Positions 2,689 to 25,081 of a stretch of 34,888 nt of DNA are shown one piece after another. The translations under genes were made by a program, and so were the position numbers. The notes below the pieces were generated by a model. That model was not told the origin of the DNA and searched no databases. It saw only the letters and a program-made list of their open reading frames with translations. How positions within the stretch are numbered: the stretch's first letter is position 1; each line of letters begins with the position of its first letter. The DNA is from an uncultured Bacilli bacterium (GTDB taxonomy: Bacteria; Bacillota_I; Bacilli_A; RF39; UBA660), in the NCBI GenBank assembly GCA_944332695.1, contig CALVKL010000004.1, positions 1 to 34,888 of the forward strand. Direction: 5' to 3'.

Positions 2689-3130
2689 CCAGTTCTAACT
2701 GTGTTTCTAAAGTTTCTTTTAATCTTCGTTTAAAAACAATCATATTTCTTCTTAAATTATCTGTTTCTTTTTCTATTTCTTCTGCTTTAATTAAAGCTTC
2801 ATTGACAATACGATTAGCATTTTTCTTTGCATCGCTAACTATTATATCTCTTTCTTGGTAAGCTGTCAACTTAATTTGTTCACTTGTTTTTTCAGCCATT
2901 AAAATTGCTCGTTTCAAATTTTCTTCCATTCTTGCGAATTGAGTGATTTTATCATTTAATTTTTTATTTTCTTCTTCTAAATTATTTAATTGCTCTCCTT
3001 TTAACGTTAATTGCTTATCTTTTTCTTCATTTTCTCTAACTATCGTTTCAACTTTAGCAATTACCTTATCTAAGAAATCATTTACTTCTTCTGGATTGTA
3101 TCCTCTTAAAACACGGCTGAATTTTTCCAT
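2660..3130 (-). CDS. divIVA: DivIVA-family cell division / polarity protein
   Basis: Coiled-coil scaffold that binds curved membrane at poles and septa in Gram-positive bacteria. The N-terminus has the family signature RVLRGYNPEEVNDFLDKV (residues 6-23), followed by a long charged heptad-rich coiled coil (about residues 25-145). At 156 residues it is near the usual size. The start at 3130 has a GAGGTGA site, and an in-frame TGA four codons upstream rules out extension. The protein therefore lacks most of the roughly 10 residues that normally precede the RGY motif and help form the membrane-binding tip. It follows sepF by about 20 nt, so the two are probably co-transcribed as a division pair. 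Confidence 0.88.
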   Translation of the reverse strand: MEKFSRVLRGYNPEEVNDFLDKVIAKVETIVRENEEKDKQLTLKGEQLNNLEEENKKLNDKITQFARMEENLKRAILMAEKTSEQIKLTAYQERDIIVSDAKKNANRIVNEALIKAEEIEKETDNLRRNMIVFKRRLKETLETQLELVDDIEKIEI

Positions 3131-3151
3131 AGCTTCACCTCAAATCAATTT

Positions 3152-9396: not shown

Positions 9397-9678
9397 ATCC
9401 ATAATTTTGCTTTTTAAATCATCGTCTAAATTAACGATGATTTTTTTGATCTCATTATTTTTTTTATGTAATTTTAATTTTGATTCATAATACAATAATT
9501 TTTCTTCTATTTCTTTTAAAGTCTTATGAATCGCATTACGACTAATATTATAATTTTCACTAATTTCACTTAAAGATAAATTATCAAAATAATAATCTTT
9601 AAAATATTGTTTTTGTTTATCTGTCAGTAATTCCCCATAATAATCATACAATATACTTAATAAAACTTGATTATTCAT
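9388..9678 (-). CDS. ylxM: YlxM-family putative HTH protein of the SRP operon
   Basis: 96-residue UPF0122/YlxM protein: LLSILYDYYGELLTDKQKQ, then YYFDNLSLSEISENYNISRNAIHKTLKEIEEKL, a sigma-like helix-turn-helix. The family sits beside ftsY and ffh in Bacilli and can stimulate the signal-recognition-particle GTPase. The start at ATG 9678 is chosen because it sits one base after the stop of the upstream gene (TAAaATG), giving translational coupling. A TTG three codons upstream is the only alternative, and neither has a ribosome site. Unlike the usual order, ffh does not follow; the gene converges with an HTH gene. Confidence 0.85.
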   Translation of the reverse strand: MNNQVLLSILYDYYGELLTDKQKQYFKDYYFDNLSLSEISENYNISRNAIHKTLKEIEEKLLYYESKLKLHKKNNEIKKIIVNLDDDLKSKIMDLI

Positions 9679-9679
9679 T

Positions 9680-9934
9680 TTAAACAAACAAAACAGTACA
9701 AATAATAACGATACCTAATCCCAAATAAATAGGTGTCATATATTTTCTTTTATAAATTTTATAGTTATTATATGAAATTACAAACATCAATAATCCAGTC
9801 AAAATTTGACTGATTTTAAATAATTCTCTTTCAAAAACACTAGCAACACCAAAAGCAACCAAATATATTGCTAAAGCAATCTGTAATAACATCGTAATTT
9901 GTTCTACTGTATCAATATTTAATTTATTCTTCAT
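9680..9934 (-). CDS. small four-helix membrane protein of unknown function
   Basis: 84 residues from the ATG at 9934, which follows GGAGGCAGTT. Hydrophobic stretches are ITMLLQIALAIYLVAFGVAS, ISQILTGLLMFVISY and YLGLGIVIICTVLFV, with a basic loop KIYKRKY between the last two. It starts inside the end of ftsY (11-nt overlap) and ends one base before ylxM, so three genes are translationally chained. I do not recognise the family. Its place between the SRP receptor and ylxM suggests membrane-protein biogenesis, an inference from context only. Confidence 0.7.
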   Translation of the reverse strand: MKNKLNIDTVEQITMLLQIALAIYLVAFGVASVFERELFKISQILTGLLMFVISYNNYKIYKRKYMTPIYLGLGIVIICTVLFV

Positions 9935-10964: not shown

Positions 10965-10993
10965 TTGACAAATATTATTAAAAAATGTATAAT
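10965..10993 (+). promoter_or_regulatory. rnjA promoter, consensus sigma-A type
   Basis: TTGACA (10965-10970), 17-bp spacer and TATAAT (10988-10993), a perfect match. A divergent minus-strand TATAAT for ftsY lies near 10920, so both genes are read from this region. Confidence 0.85.
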
Positions 10994-11030
10994 TATAAAG
11001 TCATATTTCTTAAAAAGAAAGGAGGTTAAA

Positions 11031-12677
11031 ATGTTTAAAGAAAGTATTACTAAAATTTTCGCATTAGGTGGTTTAGGTGAAGTCGGCAAAAATATGTACT
11101 GTATTATGCATGAAAATGAAATTATCATTATTGATGCTGGAGTTATTTTTCCTGATGACATGATTGGTGTCGATTATATTATTCCTGATTTTACTTTTTT
11201 AAAACGTAATGAACGAAAAATTAAAGCATTATTTATAACCCATGGTCACGAGGATCATATTGGAGCTATTCCTTTTTTATTACAAAATGTTAATATACCC
11301 GCTATTTATGCGCCTAATCAAGCAGTTGGACTCATTAAAGCAAAATTGGAAGAAAGAAATATCCAATATAAAAATATATTCGTTTACAATGAAAAAAATA
11401 AAATCAAATTTAAACATATGATGGTTGAATTTTTTATGACAACGCACTCTATTCCTGATAGTCATGGAATATGTGTCCACACACCAAATGGTACTGTTGT
11501 TGCTACCGGTGATTTTAAATTTGATTTAACTCCAATTGGACCAATGGCTAATATTCATAAAATGGCAGAAATTGGAAAAAAAGGAGTGACTTTATTATTA
11601 AGCGATAGTACCAACGCTTTAAATGAAGGCTTTTCAACTAGTGAATCCAAAGTTGACGAAGCTTTATCTGATATTTTTAAAAAACATCATGGCCGTATTA
11701 TAATTGCTACATTTGCTTCTAATATTTATCGTCTTAAACATATTGTTGATACATGTAAAAGAAACAATCGCAAAATTGCTATATTTGGACGTAGTATGAC
11801 AATTAATATTGATATATCAATTCAAGGCGGATATATTAAAAATAAAGGCATATTTATTACACCAGAAGAAGCTAACAATATGCCTGATCATAAAGTATGC
11901 TTACTATGCACAGGATCTCAAGGTGAACCGCTTGCAGCTTTAAGTCGAATTGCAAATGGTAGCCATAAACAAATTAAAATTAAAAGTAATGATACTGTTG
12001 TCTTTTCTTCATCTGCTATTCCTGGTAATGCTATTAGTATATCAAGAACTATTAATAAACTTTATTTAAAAGGTGTTAAAGTATATACAAACACTTCATT
12101 AAGTGATGTTCATACTTCTGGTCATGCCAGTCAAGAAGAATTAAAACTAATGATTAGATTAATCAATCCTAAATATTTTATGCCAGTTCATGGTGAGTAT
12201 CGAATGCTTAAAGAACATGCTGACTTAGCCATTATGTGTGATATTCCAAAAGAAAACACCTTTGCTTTAAGTAATGGCGAAGTACTAAATATGAAAAATG
12301 GTCACATTACTAAAGGCGAGACTATTATTACTGGTAATTCTTATGTTGATGGTAATAAAATTGGTGATATTAATAATATCGTCATGAAGGAACGTAAATC
12401 AATGAGTCAAGACGGCATTGTTATTGTCACTTTAACTATTAAAAATAACAAACTATTATCCAATCCAACAATTACGACTAGAGGATTTATACTAATTAAC
12501 GATAATATGGAATTATTACATGATTTAGAAAATAAAACCAAATCTATTGTCAACGATAAGCTCAAAAATATTAGTGAATTAAAATCACTAATCATTACAG
12601 AATTAGTAAGTTATATATATGAAAAAACCGGTCGTAAGCCAACTATATTACCGGTTATTATGGAGATAAAGGTATAA
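11031..12677 (+). CDS. rnjA: ribonuclease J
   Basis: Metallo-beta-lactamase/beta-CASP nuclease with endo- and 5'-3' exonuclease activity in mRNA decay and rRNA maturation. 548 residues from ATG 11031 after AAAGGAGGT; the open frame reaches further upstream, but only into the promoter. Motifs: HGHEDH (71-76, zinc ligands), THSIPDSHG, ATGDFKFD, SDSTNA, the beta-CASP segment with GRSM, CTGSQGEP, and a late MPVHGEYRMLKEHADLA. The C-terminal domain is complete (usual length about 555). Monocistronic, with its own promoter and a strong terminator overlapping the stop. Confidence 0.95.
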   Translation: MFKESITKIFALGGLGEVGKNMYCIMHENEIIIIDAGVIFPDDMIGVDYIIPDFTFLKRNERKIKALFITHGHEDHIGAIPFLLQNVNIPAIYAPNQAVGLIKAKLEERNIQYKNIFVYNEKNKIKFKHMMVEFFMTTHSIPDSHGICVHTPNGTVVATGDFKFDLTPIGPMANIHKMAEIGKKGVTLLLSDSTNALNEGFSTSESKVDEALSDIFKKHHGRIIIATFASNIYRLKHIVDTCKRNNRKIAIFGRSMTINIDISIQGGYIKNKGIFITPEEANNMPDHKVCLLCTGSQGEPLAALSRIANGSHKQIKIKSNDTVVFSSSAIPGNAISISRTINKLYLKGVKVYTNTSLSDVHTSGHASQEELKLMIRLINPKYFMPVHGEYRMLKEHADLAIMCDIPKENTFALSNGEVLNMKNGHITKGETIITGNSYVDGNKIGDINNIVMKERKSMSQDGIVIVTLTIKNNKLLSNPTITTRGFILINDNMELLHDLENKTKSIVNDKLKNISELKSLIITELVSYIYEKTGRKPTILPVIMEIKV

Positions 12678-12693
12678 TCTTTATCTCTTTTAA
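12663..12693 (+). terminator. rnjA terminator
   Basis: GAGATAAAG (12663-12671), 7-nt loop, CTTTATCTC (12679-12687), then TTTT. The stop codon sits in the loop. Confidence 0.85.
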
Positions 12694-12710
12694 TTTATAA
12701 AATTTATTAA

Positions 12711-12875
12711 TTAATTATGAAGGACTAGAACAGCTCTGGCGGAAAAGTCGAAATCGCTACCGCCAATGTAGGTGCCGAAGTAGAACAAGCCCGCACTAGC
12801 ACCATTGTTGTAGTTGCCACCCCGATTGAACCGGAAATTACTAGGGTTCGGAAAGTTCGCGTTATGACCTACGCC
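12711..12875 (-). pseudogene. orphan C-terminal variable cassette of the lectin-like protein
   Basis: A 54-codon minus-strand frame with a stop (TAG 12876-12878) right before it and TAA at 12711. It encodes VGHNANFPNPSNFRFNRGG, then NYNNGASAGLFYFGTYIGG and FSARAVLVLHN. This aligns without gaps over FPN..SN..FNRGG.Y.NGASAG.FYF with the end of the intact gene at 13138-14532. Identical DNA blocks include GGTGCTAGTGCGGGC and TGTTCTACTTCG. It has no N-terminal part, start or ribosome site, and is far more GC-rich than its surroundings. It could be a silent donor cassette, a relic of a lost paralogue or part of a retroelement system. The rest of 12876-13137 is T-rich and holds nothing I recognise. 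Confidence 0.8.
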
Positions 12876-13114
12876 CTATATAATTTATATCAATAAATTA
12901 TACCAAAGCTAAACATATTGACATCGTTGTATTATATTTTTTAAAATATAACCATACATTTATTATTTGACAATTTATTTATATTTTATTAAAAATTTTA
13001 TGACTTCTTGTTTTAACATTTATATATATTTCTTTACTTTATTACTTTTTTATAATTTTTTCTATTTTCTTTACTTATTCTACTTCTTTTTTTATTATCT
13101 ATTTTCCAAGAATA

Positions 13115-13140
13115 AGAAATTAGTAAACTGTTGTTTGCTA
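13115..13140 (-). promoter_or_regulatory. hairpin just downstream of the variable region
   Basis: Starting at the TAG stop on the minus strand: TAG-C-AAAC-AACA-GTTT-A-CTA. This is a seven-pair stem with one mismatch and a 4-nt loop. It has no U run, so it is a poor terminator. A small hairpin at this place is a known feature of retroelement target sites. Confidence 0.4.
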
Positions 13141-14532
13141 CTCACGAACTGCAAGCACACCATGAGCGGAATTGGAGGAAGACGACGCACCACCTGAGAT
13201 ATAGGCGAAGTAGAACACGCCCGCACTAGCACCGTTCCTGTATGAGCCACCACGATTAAACCAGGAGTTGCTAGAGTTAGGAAACCACGCGAAATCTCTA
13301 TACCAGCCACCTGAAGGATTTCCAAATGTTGTTAATGTCTCTTTTGTTGCGTCGCCCAATTTACCACGACTTTGTACTGTGTTTGATGTACTATATGTAT
13401 ATCTATCATAGTATTTTGAATCTGGTACGCTTGTAAATCCTGGACCACTCGGATAAAAATTCCCACTCCTATCTACCATATTGCCCATTACATATTCGTT
13501 TGCTCCACCGGACATATCATATACACCATAAATATTTCCTGTTGTACTTGCTAACGTCCCATTAGTTGTATTATATGCATCACAACTACTAATTGAACTA
13601 CTTCCTGCTGCTGCCCCACATCCTGTTATAAAATTACTATTATTGTTTATTCCAATATCTGTTGCTCCTAATCCATACTTACTTTGTTTTAAATATGCTA
13701 CTGCTCCCCATTCCATATTTTTCATCATATGGCTATCACCATTTAAATTATATGTTGTACTTATTCCTTGAATTGCTGTAAATAAATTTAATAGTGTTGC
13801 ATATCTTAAACTACTTACATTGGGTTTTATTGTTATTGTATGATCTGATTTATCACAATTCGTAAAACTTGGACTACTATTGCAAGTACTATCTGTTGTA
13901 CTTATTTCAAACTTGCCTACCCATATTCCAGTCAATTCTTGAGTACCAAAAGTAAATGCTGGGTGGGTATACCAATTTCCATTAGTAGCATTAGTGCACG
14001 TTTCACTACTATTCCCTGATCCGCTTACGGCATCAACACAACTTACTGTTCCAGTTGAAGATGTTCCATTTTCAAAAGTTATTTGTATTTCTAATGGTTC
14101 TATACTTCCATTATTAGCATTAAATAGTTGATATTTATATCTTGGTATCCATACATACCAAAGCGCAATATCATCTTCGCTTATAATATCACCAACATTT
14201 TTACTTACATCACTATTTAATATAACGGCATTAGCCCATTCTTTAGAATCATAATCATACCATTCTTCATATATATCAGCATATACCCAATTTGTTCCAT
14301 CATATTTAACTGGTATCATATTATCTAATAATTCTGGTTTATTAGCTCCACTTCGATCACGATAAATTATCCCAAAAAATTCATCATTTAATTCATTAGC
14401 AACATCATTTTTTAGTTTATCTAATATTACTTTTCGTCCTCCTAATATACTTAAAATTCCAAAGATTAAAATTAAAAATAAAATTAAAATTGAATATATT
14501 ATACCACTAACAGCGAACCCTTTATTATTCAA
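13138..14532 (-). CDS. membrane-anchored protein with C-type-lectin/FGE-like C-terminus (variable-protein type)
   Basis: Likely surface protein, 464 residues from the TTG at 14532, eight bases after AGAAGGT. Earlier in-frame codons overlap the promoter. The N-terminus is pilin-like: NNKGFAVSGIIYSILILFLI, one membrane segment (about 6-31), then a charged helix. The body has WYVWIPRYKYQ, GIWVGKFE, MKNMEWGAVAYLKQSKYG and GNIYGVYDMSGGANEYVMG, the conserved blocks of the formylglycine-generating-enzyme/C-type-lectin fold. The last 60 residues (WYRDFAW, WFNRGGSYRNGASAGVFYF, then a serine-rich segment) match the variable-region pattern of diversity-generating retroelement targets. Unlike neighbours, the 3' end is GC-rich. 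A related orphan cassette lies 260 bp downstream. Ligand unknown. Confidence 0.75.
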   Translation of the reverse strand: MNNKGFAVSGIIYSILILFLILIFGILSILGGRKVILDKLKNDVANELNDEFFGIIYRDRSGANKPELLDNMIPVKYDGTNWVYADIYEEWYDYDSKEWANAVILNSDVSKNVGDIISEDDIALWYVWIPRYKYQLFNANNGSIEPLEIQITFENGTSSTGTVSCVDAVSGSGNSSETCTNATNGNWYTHPAFTFGTQELTGIWVGKFEISTTDSTCNSSPSFTNCDKSDHTITIKPNVSSLRYATLLNLFTAIQGISTTYNLNGDSHMMKNMEWGAVAYLKQSKYGLGATDIGINNNSNFITGCGAAAGSSSISSCDAYNTTNGTLASTTGNIYGVYDMSGGANEYVMGNMVDRSGNFYPSGPGFTSVPDSKYYDRYTYSTSNTVQSRGKLGDATKETLTTFGNPSGGWYRDFAWFPNSSNSWFNRGGSYRNGASAGVFYFAYISGGASSSSNSAHGVLAVRE

Positions 14533-23364: not shown

Positions 23365-25081
23365 TTATAATTCATATGGTTCTTGAGCAGTACCTTTACC
23401 ATTAGAGAAAGTTAGGGCTGACTTTAAGTAAATAGTTGACGAAGCAGCATTACCTAATCGCCCAGTAAGCTCAACATTGTGAACAACAGAACCTAAACCA
23501 AAAAGATTCATTGTCCAATAGGAAGTTGATACTGTTGGATTTTCAATGGTATTTACATCGATAAATGTTTTTGTTATTGAATCACTTAAATCTATATCAT
23601 TTCCACTAAACATCTCGCCTACAGTTGGTAATCCTATATTAGCAGTTATTGTTGTTGCTTGCGGTACCGTATAATTGTCTCCCATTTCATACAATCCTAC
23701 TCCATATGTTCCTTCGGTTATATATTTACTATCGATATTGTTTATAAATGGCGTTAATACTCCAGTATATACTATATCAGTTGTTTGGATATTATCACTT
23801 GTATCTACTGCCCATGCACTTGTTGTTGGAAGCAATCCATTTAATACTACTTTTATTCGATTATTTGCTTCATCTTTACTTACTACCCTAAATGTACATT
23901 TATTATCGCTTCCACATGCATTATCTGTTCCTTTATATGGTACATTGATATATTCGCCTACTTGTACATCATTTGTATTTGTCACTTTTGTTCCTACTTT
24001 ATAATTTGAGGTTAGAGTACCATCTCCTTCGGTGATGATCACGTCAGAAATTTTTATAACTGCGCGAATACTACGACCACTTGACGGACCTTGAATAGCT
24101 GTTAGACCTTCTTCTTTAACATTAATAACATTTGAATCATCATAGTAATTTCCTGTCCACCAACGCTCTTTAATATCTAAATAAGAATTCTTTCCCCCGG
24201 CTCTACTATATTGCACTATATCTAATAATCCTACTTTCTTAGTTGTTGTTATTTCATCTACATCAGTATATATTCCAATATTAAATGTACTATTTAATAT
24301 GTTATCTTTAATACTACTATCTAGACTATTATAGAAATAATTATTTAGCCAATCATTTACATAACTTGCCTCATATTTAGCTTCAGTATTTCATACTTCA
24401 TTTGCTGACCGGATTGTCGTCAATGGTTGTTGTGTTATTAAAGTTAATGAATTAGCTAAAGTATCAAATTCAATTACGCGCCAATGATGACCTCCATACC
24501 ATAAATAATTGTTAGCTACTTCATCATTGGTTCCTTTATAATAATATACATTTGAATTAGTTGTATCTTTTAATAAACCCACGGTGTTTGATCCATTATA
24601 TTGTGATAGTAGCTTATTAATTAACGAATTGGGGTTTCTCGGACATTGTTCATCATCAATCACAAATGTTCCACTTAAACATAATGTATAGGTATGATTA
24701 TTACTTTCAATTACTAAATTTGTTAATTTATTACCACTATAACTATTTCTTTTTACCTTAGCACTACCTAAATTAACCATTTTCTTTATCTCTTCTTCAG
24801 TAAATGATATTTTATTAGAACAATCAATATCTTCGCTTGTTAATGTTCCCATTTGTTTTTTCATTTCACTTGTTGCACAATAATTATTTATACCATTTAA
24901 AATCATATTAGATTCTGACTTGCCAGCAGAACTTCTAGCATCATCTACTACATCTAATATAATTGGGGTGGCTATTAATGCTACTATTGCTAATATGATT
25001 ATTACTGCCAATAACTCTATTAACGTAAATGCTTTATTTAGTAAATGCCCCCTCATTTTTGCATATCGTTAATTTTTTCAT
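23365..25081 (-). pseudogene. type IV pilin-like protein gene with leader insertion and in-frame TGA
   Basis: The strong site GGAGGAATAAAAA precedes ATG 25081, which starts MKKLTICKNEGAFT and then stops. Removing a 16-nt repeat unit at 25025-25048 joins this to LIELLAVIIILAIVALIATP, a textbook prepilin signal with cleavage after Gly. As it stands, only a start at 25056 without ribosome site reaches the hydrophobic helix, and leaves Lys before AFTLIELL. The frame then runs to TGA at 24391-24393 after TTIRSANEV and continues in frame (NTEAKYEASYVNDWLNNYFY) to 23365. The body has paired cysteines, WYGGHHWRVIEFD, and a C-terminus STIYLKSALTF then GTAQEPYEL. Gut firmicute pilin-like proteins look like this. 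Surface location expected. Confidence 0.8.
25025..25048. repeat. 8-bp direct repeat pair in the pilin leader
   Basis: GTAAATGC at 25025-25032 and 25041-25048, separated by TTTATTTA. Loss of one copy plus the spacer (16 bp) restores the prepilin frame exactly. Confidence 0.85.

Follow-up and report, generated by a model that had tools for sequence, protein, structure and literature searches.

The systems closest to the locus described here are diversity-generating retroelements (DGRs), among which arrangements with several template repeats (TRs) and many variable repeats (VRs) are on record (PMC6642488). Retrohoming in BPP-1 requires a hairpin after the VR (PMC3240598). In Treponema denticola, remnants of target genes are found without a reverse transcriptase (RT) and a TR (PMC4891356). 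Tenericutes and Mollicutes go unmentioned in the main text of a large survey of DGRs, which states that its method misses remote targets (PMC8144416). We analyzed a stretch of 34,888 nucleotides (the window, positions 1 to 34,888 of contig CALVKL010000004.1) from an uncultured gut-type Bacilli bacterium. The genome under study, G000, is a metagenome bin of 1.21 Mb in 113 contigs and is 89.9% complete; the overall G+C of the contig is 0.25. The region examined is probably a DGR fossil, consisting of a target gene for a surface protein and a half-overwritten TR that have become detached from their machinery. As in T. denticola, a target with fossil adenine diversification would have outlasted the loss of the DGR core; unlike those remnants, the window retains a TR leader and a portion of the TR itself, half of it VR-like, and a second break is present on another contig. 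As a DGR fossil the region is ordinary in kind, and its anatomy is unusually clear.

Intact relatives have the gene order target, TR, MutS-like accessory, Avd and RT, with the TR downstream of the target on the same strand. At seven of these loci (L088, L089, L093, L095, L096, L098 and L102), 94 of the 96 mismatches between TR and VR fall at TR adenines, indicating that the DGR machinery of the relatives is standard. The corresponding value for L107 and L132 is 26 of 27, and for the nine family loci combined 120 of 123 differences between TR and target lie on template adenines. The closest relatives are uncultured Bacilli MAGs; among their loci, L107 (BRZ_PA__bin23) and L132 (BRZ_PD__bin30) each have a target, a TR (NANFPNSSNSWF.RGGNY.NG..AG.FNFNNN) and an RT. 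Between the TR and the RT, L107 carries genes for a MutS domain I protein (PF01624) and a bAvd (PF22296); the former is a small protein encoded at 2715-3140, between the TR and Avd (E=3e-10), and a similar protein is encoded in L132 at 9653-9931. These intact FGE-type DGRs of genus mates resemble the window locus in target, hairpin, TR leader and start, order and strand. They differ from it in that the TR is complete and is followed by the MutS-domain accessory, Avd and RT, and in that their TR-VR differences fall almost solely at adenines. A third locus, L111 (BRZ_PE__bin58, G200), is like G000 in having a target and a TR without an adjacent RT, and is syntenic with contig C1 of G000; unlike that of the window, its TR is complete and has a normal 3′ flank. 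C-termini of this kind are encoded in 75 of the 193 family genomes, frequently in many copies per genome, and many of these genomes have DGR RTs bearing IGNxTSQ and MDD motifs. No relatives of the element were confirmed among viral contigs.

The features of the window that are relevant to the comparison are the following.

10965-12677, plus strand: RNase J-like gene (rnj), which converges on the cassette; the usual convergent neighbor in most relatives is a mutM-like gene.
12711-12800, minus strand: variable-like 3′ part of the cassette (ASAGLFYFGTYIGGSDFDFSARAVLVLHN, then a stop), with adenines diversified and the usual TR 3′ flank missing.
12801-12860, minus strand: template-like 5′ part of the cassette (ANFPNPSNFRFNRGGNYNNG), with adenines retained.
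12861-12904, minus strand: TR leader with a TGGTATAAT-like extended -10 box, conserved in the DGRs of genus mates.
13121-13140, minus strand: inverted repeat TAGCAAAC-AACA-GTTTACTA, which begins at the stop codon and has one mismatch.
13138-13290, minus strand: VR of the gene, with adenine-site change relative to invariant template positions.
13138-14532, minus strand: gene for a DGR variable (target) protein of 464 aa; the closest profile and fold match is TaqVP (5vf4).

The target protein begins with a hydrophobic helix, continues with an FGE/C-type-lectin body and ends in the variable C-terminus. No named Pfam or NCBIfam domain was found in the gene product alone; of 50 aligned relatives, 26 gave a weak match to FGE-sulfatase, and a profile search with the gene product gave 5vf4 as its sole match (E=6e-5). 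The AlphaFold model (mean pLDDT 86, pTM 0.84) has the DGR variable protein TaqVP as its best fold match in the PDB (E=6.7e-10), followed by Mtd variants (E=5e-4) and then by FGE and TvpA, and these matches to TaqVP and Mtd support a C-type-lectin fold of the variable domain in the predicted model. The TM-scores to TaqVP are modest (0.36-0.43) and the sequence identity is low (about 15%), so the match holds at the level of fold class. TaqVP, Mtd and TvpA thus share with the window protein the lectin fold and the variable C-terminus, whereas the N-terminal hydrophobic helix sets it apart from them. Fold and relatives both identify the product of the window gene as a DGR variable protein, which bears out the connection to DGRs that the earlier note had drawn for this locus.

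The VR of the gene was compared with those positions that are invariant in five template repeats. Changes were found at 17 of 28 adenines and at 8 of 51 non-adenine positions (p=9e-5), so that adenine-specific diversification relative to the genus templates is present in the window gene; two control VRs from RT-bearing relative genomes showed 0 non-adenine changes. The combination indicates old adenine diversification plus ordinary drift in the C-terminus. The hairpin formed by TAGCAAAC and GTTTACTA after the stop codon is perfect in most related targets of the same class.

A working DGR might be encoded in a part of the genome that the bin lacks and still diversify the gene in trans, the cassette then being a dead TR copy. 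In this genus, targets as a rule lie remote from the DGR, an arrangement known from other DGRs (PMC4891356), and the VR of the gene keeps its high G+C together with the adenine-site change. Moreover, because the bin is only about 90% complete and is divided among so many contigs, the RT and Avd may be missing from the assembly. However, a close DGR RT query found no DGR RT in the assembled G000, while the same query recovered full-length RTs, 64-82% identical, in G194, G195 and G204 plus, in G198, a fragmented RT. Avd (PF22296), which a search of 16 genomes detected in 13, was not found in G000, and no RT adjoins the C1 locus or its syntenic counterpart L111. The non-adenine changes in the VR compared with their absence in the RT-bearing relatives, the mismatch in the VR hairpin and a broken second target also speak against diversification in trans, which we regard as unlikely. 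The earlier note had considered that the retroelement acts from elsewhere in the genome, a view not borne out by the assembled G000. Protein and DNA comparisons located the C-terminus at only two places in the assembled genome, the gene and the cassette. From a lone variable-like cassette, neither an active DGR nor one acting in trans can be deduced. The sole RT in G000, on contig C67, is retron III-A/Ec107-like and lies beside a relaxase gene and a PtuA-like ATPase, and it was ruled out as a DGR RT; this locus (L001) is likely a retron defence system carried by a mobile element. More broadly, RVT_1 was matched nowhere in 32 of the 75 family genomes that encode these C-termini. Binning may explain some of these cases, and loss of the DGR RT seems to recur in the group, as far as incomplete bins allow such a claim. 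Beside the fragmented DGR RT of G198 (L227, G198:C9, 4617-5566), near the contig end, lies a group II intron (RF02001, 130 bits).

The cassette at 12711-12875 on the minus strand comprises 54 open codons flanked by stops, with no start used (GVGHNANFPNPSNFRFNRGGNYNNGASAGLFYFGTYIGGSDFDFSARAVLVLHN, then a stop). It had been described in the earlier note as an orphan copy of the gene's C-terminus, and the copy is real: the local DNA alignment of the two scores 109, whereas shuffles (n=200) reach at most 41, and both contain the motif FPN..SN..FNRGG.Y.NGASAG.FYF. Their high G+C was also seen correctly, at about 0.52 in each as against the overall value of the contig. The same note had held that the cassette is not a simple template of the gene, and we agree, since just 7 of the 20 mismatches among 90 aligned bases are at cassette adenines, which rules it out as the gene's template. 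The cassette is probably not an active template.

The leader and 5′ half of the cassette show that it descends from the template repeat of a DGR. It lies downstream of the target on the same strand, which is the position of the TR in relatives. A TGGTATAAT-like promoter box stands just upstream of the TR start in the window, in L132 and in L107. Window positions 12846-12891 are identical to the L132 leader and TR start over 46 uninterrupted bases, and the leader and TR start of L107 share 41 identical bases with the window cassette. A single copy of the leader/TR-start motif is present in each of G000, G196, G200 and G204, and a reversed control gave none. Neither this conserved promoter-like leader nor the different histories of the two halves was among the points of the earlier note. 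The leader bears as well on that note's other proposal, a silent cassette, in which the orphan copy would supply sequence for exchanges of the gene's C-terminus by gene conversion. A block of 28 bases with one mismatch in the middle of the otherwise diverged copies would fit a small conversion tract; against this, there is one orphan copy only, it carries the TR leader and promoter-like box, and a real template repeat occupies the same position in relatives. The region is probably not a silent-cassette system, and a donor role for the cassette is extremely improbable.

The two parts of the cassette differ in their adenines. Relative to the L132 TR, none of the 26 adenines in the leader and first 19 codons is changed, and beyond them 11 of 19 are changed (p=7e-6); relative to the L107 TR, the changes number 1 of 24 in the 5′ part and 15 of 22 in the 3′ part. 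At the positions invariant in five template repeats, 8 of 14 adenines and 2 of 22 other bases in the 3′ half are changed (p=0.005). Non-adenine changes in the 3′ part are weakly in excess when L132 is the reference (p=0.04) and not in excess when it is L107. This two-part pattern indicates that the cassette is template-like in front and variable-like at the back. The TR 3′ flank (TILLYCFKI in translation) is absent after the cassette, which ends with RAVLV..N and a stop, an ending like that of remote targets; TRs end otherwise. The 3′ flank of the cassette is A+T-rich and had no match above chance to the 3′ flanks of single targets, and CATAATTAATTAA, which it has in common with the tail of the yihY-linked orthologue in L106, did not exceed shuffles. 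The unmatched flank and the weakness of the non-adenine excess both count against the fossil reading.

The 3′ part of the cassette could also have been rewritten in place. In that case mutagenized cDNA would have homed in part into the TR itself during the active phase of the DGR, and deletion of the downstream machinery would have come later. This variant of the fossil departs from the account we favor in one step alone, for which it is a serious alternative. Adenines account for most changes in the 3′ part, and in G165 a locus with an intact DGR RT (L101, G165:C58, 323-3470, minus strand) carries 11 tandem TR-like orphan cassettes, about 250-390 bp apart. In this array, an A is present in 62 of 77 variable columns and in only 1 of 43 invariant columns. 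These are apparently diversified non-coding cassettes, and their differing mainly at adenine-containing columns suggests that TR-like cassettes can become diversified. However, the TR 3′ flank is missing too, and the end of the cassette resembles that of a remote target gene, not that of a TR; we therefore consider it possible but doubtful. From half of the window cassette and the G165 array, one could go further and propose that template-like cassettes, once diversified themselves, form a stored library of variants moved into targets by recombination, which seems very improbable. The G165 cassettes were rejected as templates of coding genes, as only the array itself was matched.

On contig C1 of the G000 assembly (L223, 4727-5887), we found the front of a target of the DGR-locus type that is 93% identical to the window gene over 643 bp. 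This target is cut at HMMKN and is followed directly by the sequence that follows the TR in L132, L111 and L107 (AGAAATTATATTTGCAGTATCTTATTT). The prsA-like and mraZ-like surroundings of C1 match those of L111. The window gene itself is a mosaic: its N-terminus is 84-86% identical to the yihY-linked L105, L106 and L117 and 22% identical to C1, and its body is 89% identical to C1 and about 73% identical to the same yihY-linked orthologues. The mosaic and the C1 junction together favor recombination among target bodies, VRs and the TR as the cause. In the account favored here, homologous recombination between these DGR repeats is the most likely mechanism by which the element was dismantled. A segment of the DGR locus comprising the target body, VR, hairpin, TR leader and TR start would have been joined to a remote target beside a yihY-like gene, with the right-hand join of the moved segment inside the TR/VR homology. 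The original locus on C1 would have retained the front of the target only, fused to post-TR sequence, and what lay downstream of the TR, namely the rest of the template RNA, the MutS-like accessory, Avd and the RT, would have been lost.

DGR repeats invite misassembly, which is a caveat on the fossil reading, and the TR and VR might have been fused in silico at common sequence. Relatives' contigs often terminate at VR sequences, and blocks such as the 28 bases with one mismatch do exist. Yet the entire G000 assembly contains no DGR RT, no Avd and no remaining half of the presumed second target, and the C1 deletion and an in-frame stop in the window's second target are separate signs of decay; an assembly chimera is quite unlikely. 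With recombination as the preferred explanation, the locus illustrates a route of DGR break-up in which target and template repeats look like the recombination points that part targets from machinery and fixed variable proteins are left behind. Two break points are present in one genome, with intact relatives for comparison.

The rnj gene ends within about 35 bp after the cassette. Since a mutM-like gene occupies this place in most relatives, the junction at about 12678-12710 is a rearrangement. No ancestral FGE-type target was seen beside rnj in the relatives; two of them, L191 and L193, have another DGR-type target in place of mutM on its 3′ side, indicating that this side has been rearranged more than once. 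The second DGR-type target of the window (23365-25056, minus strand) encodes a pilin-like N-terminus and GLRPV-like variable ends. It forms one frame with a single in-frame stop just before 24391, and it therefore looks like a pseudogene.
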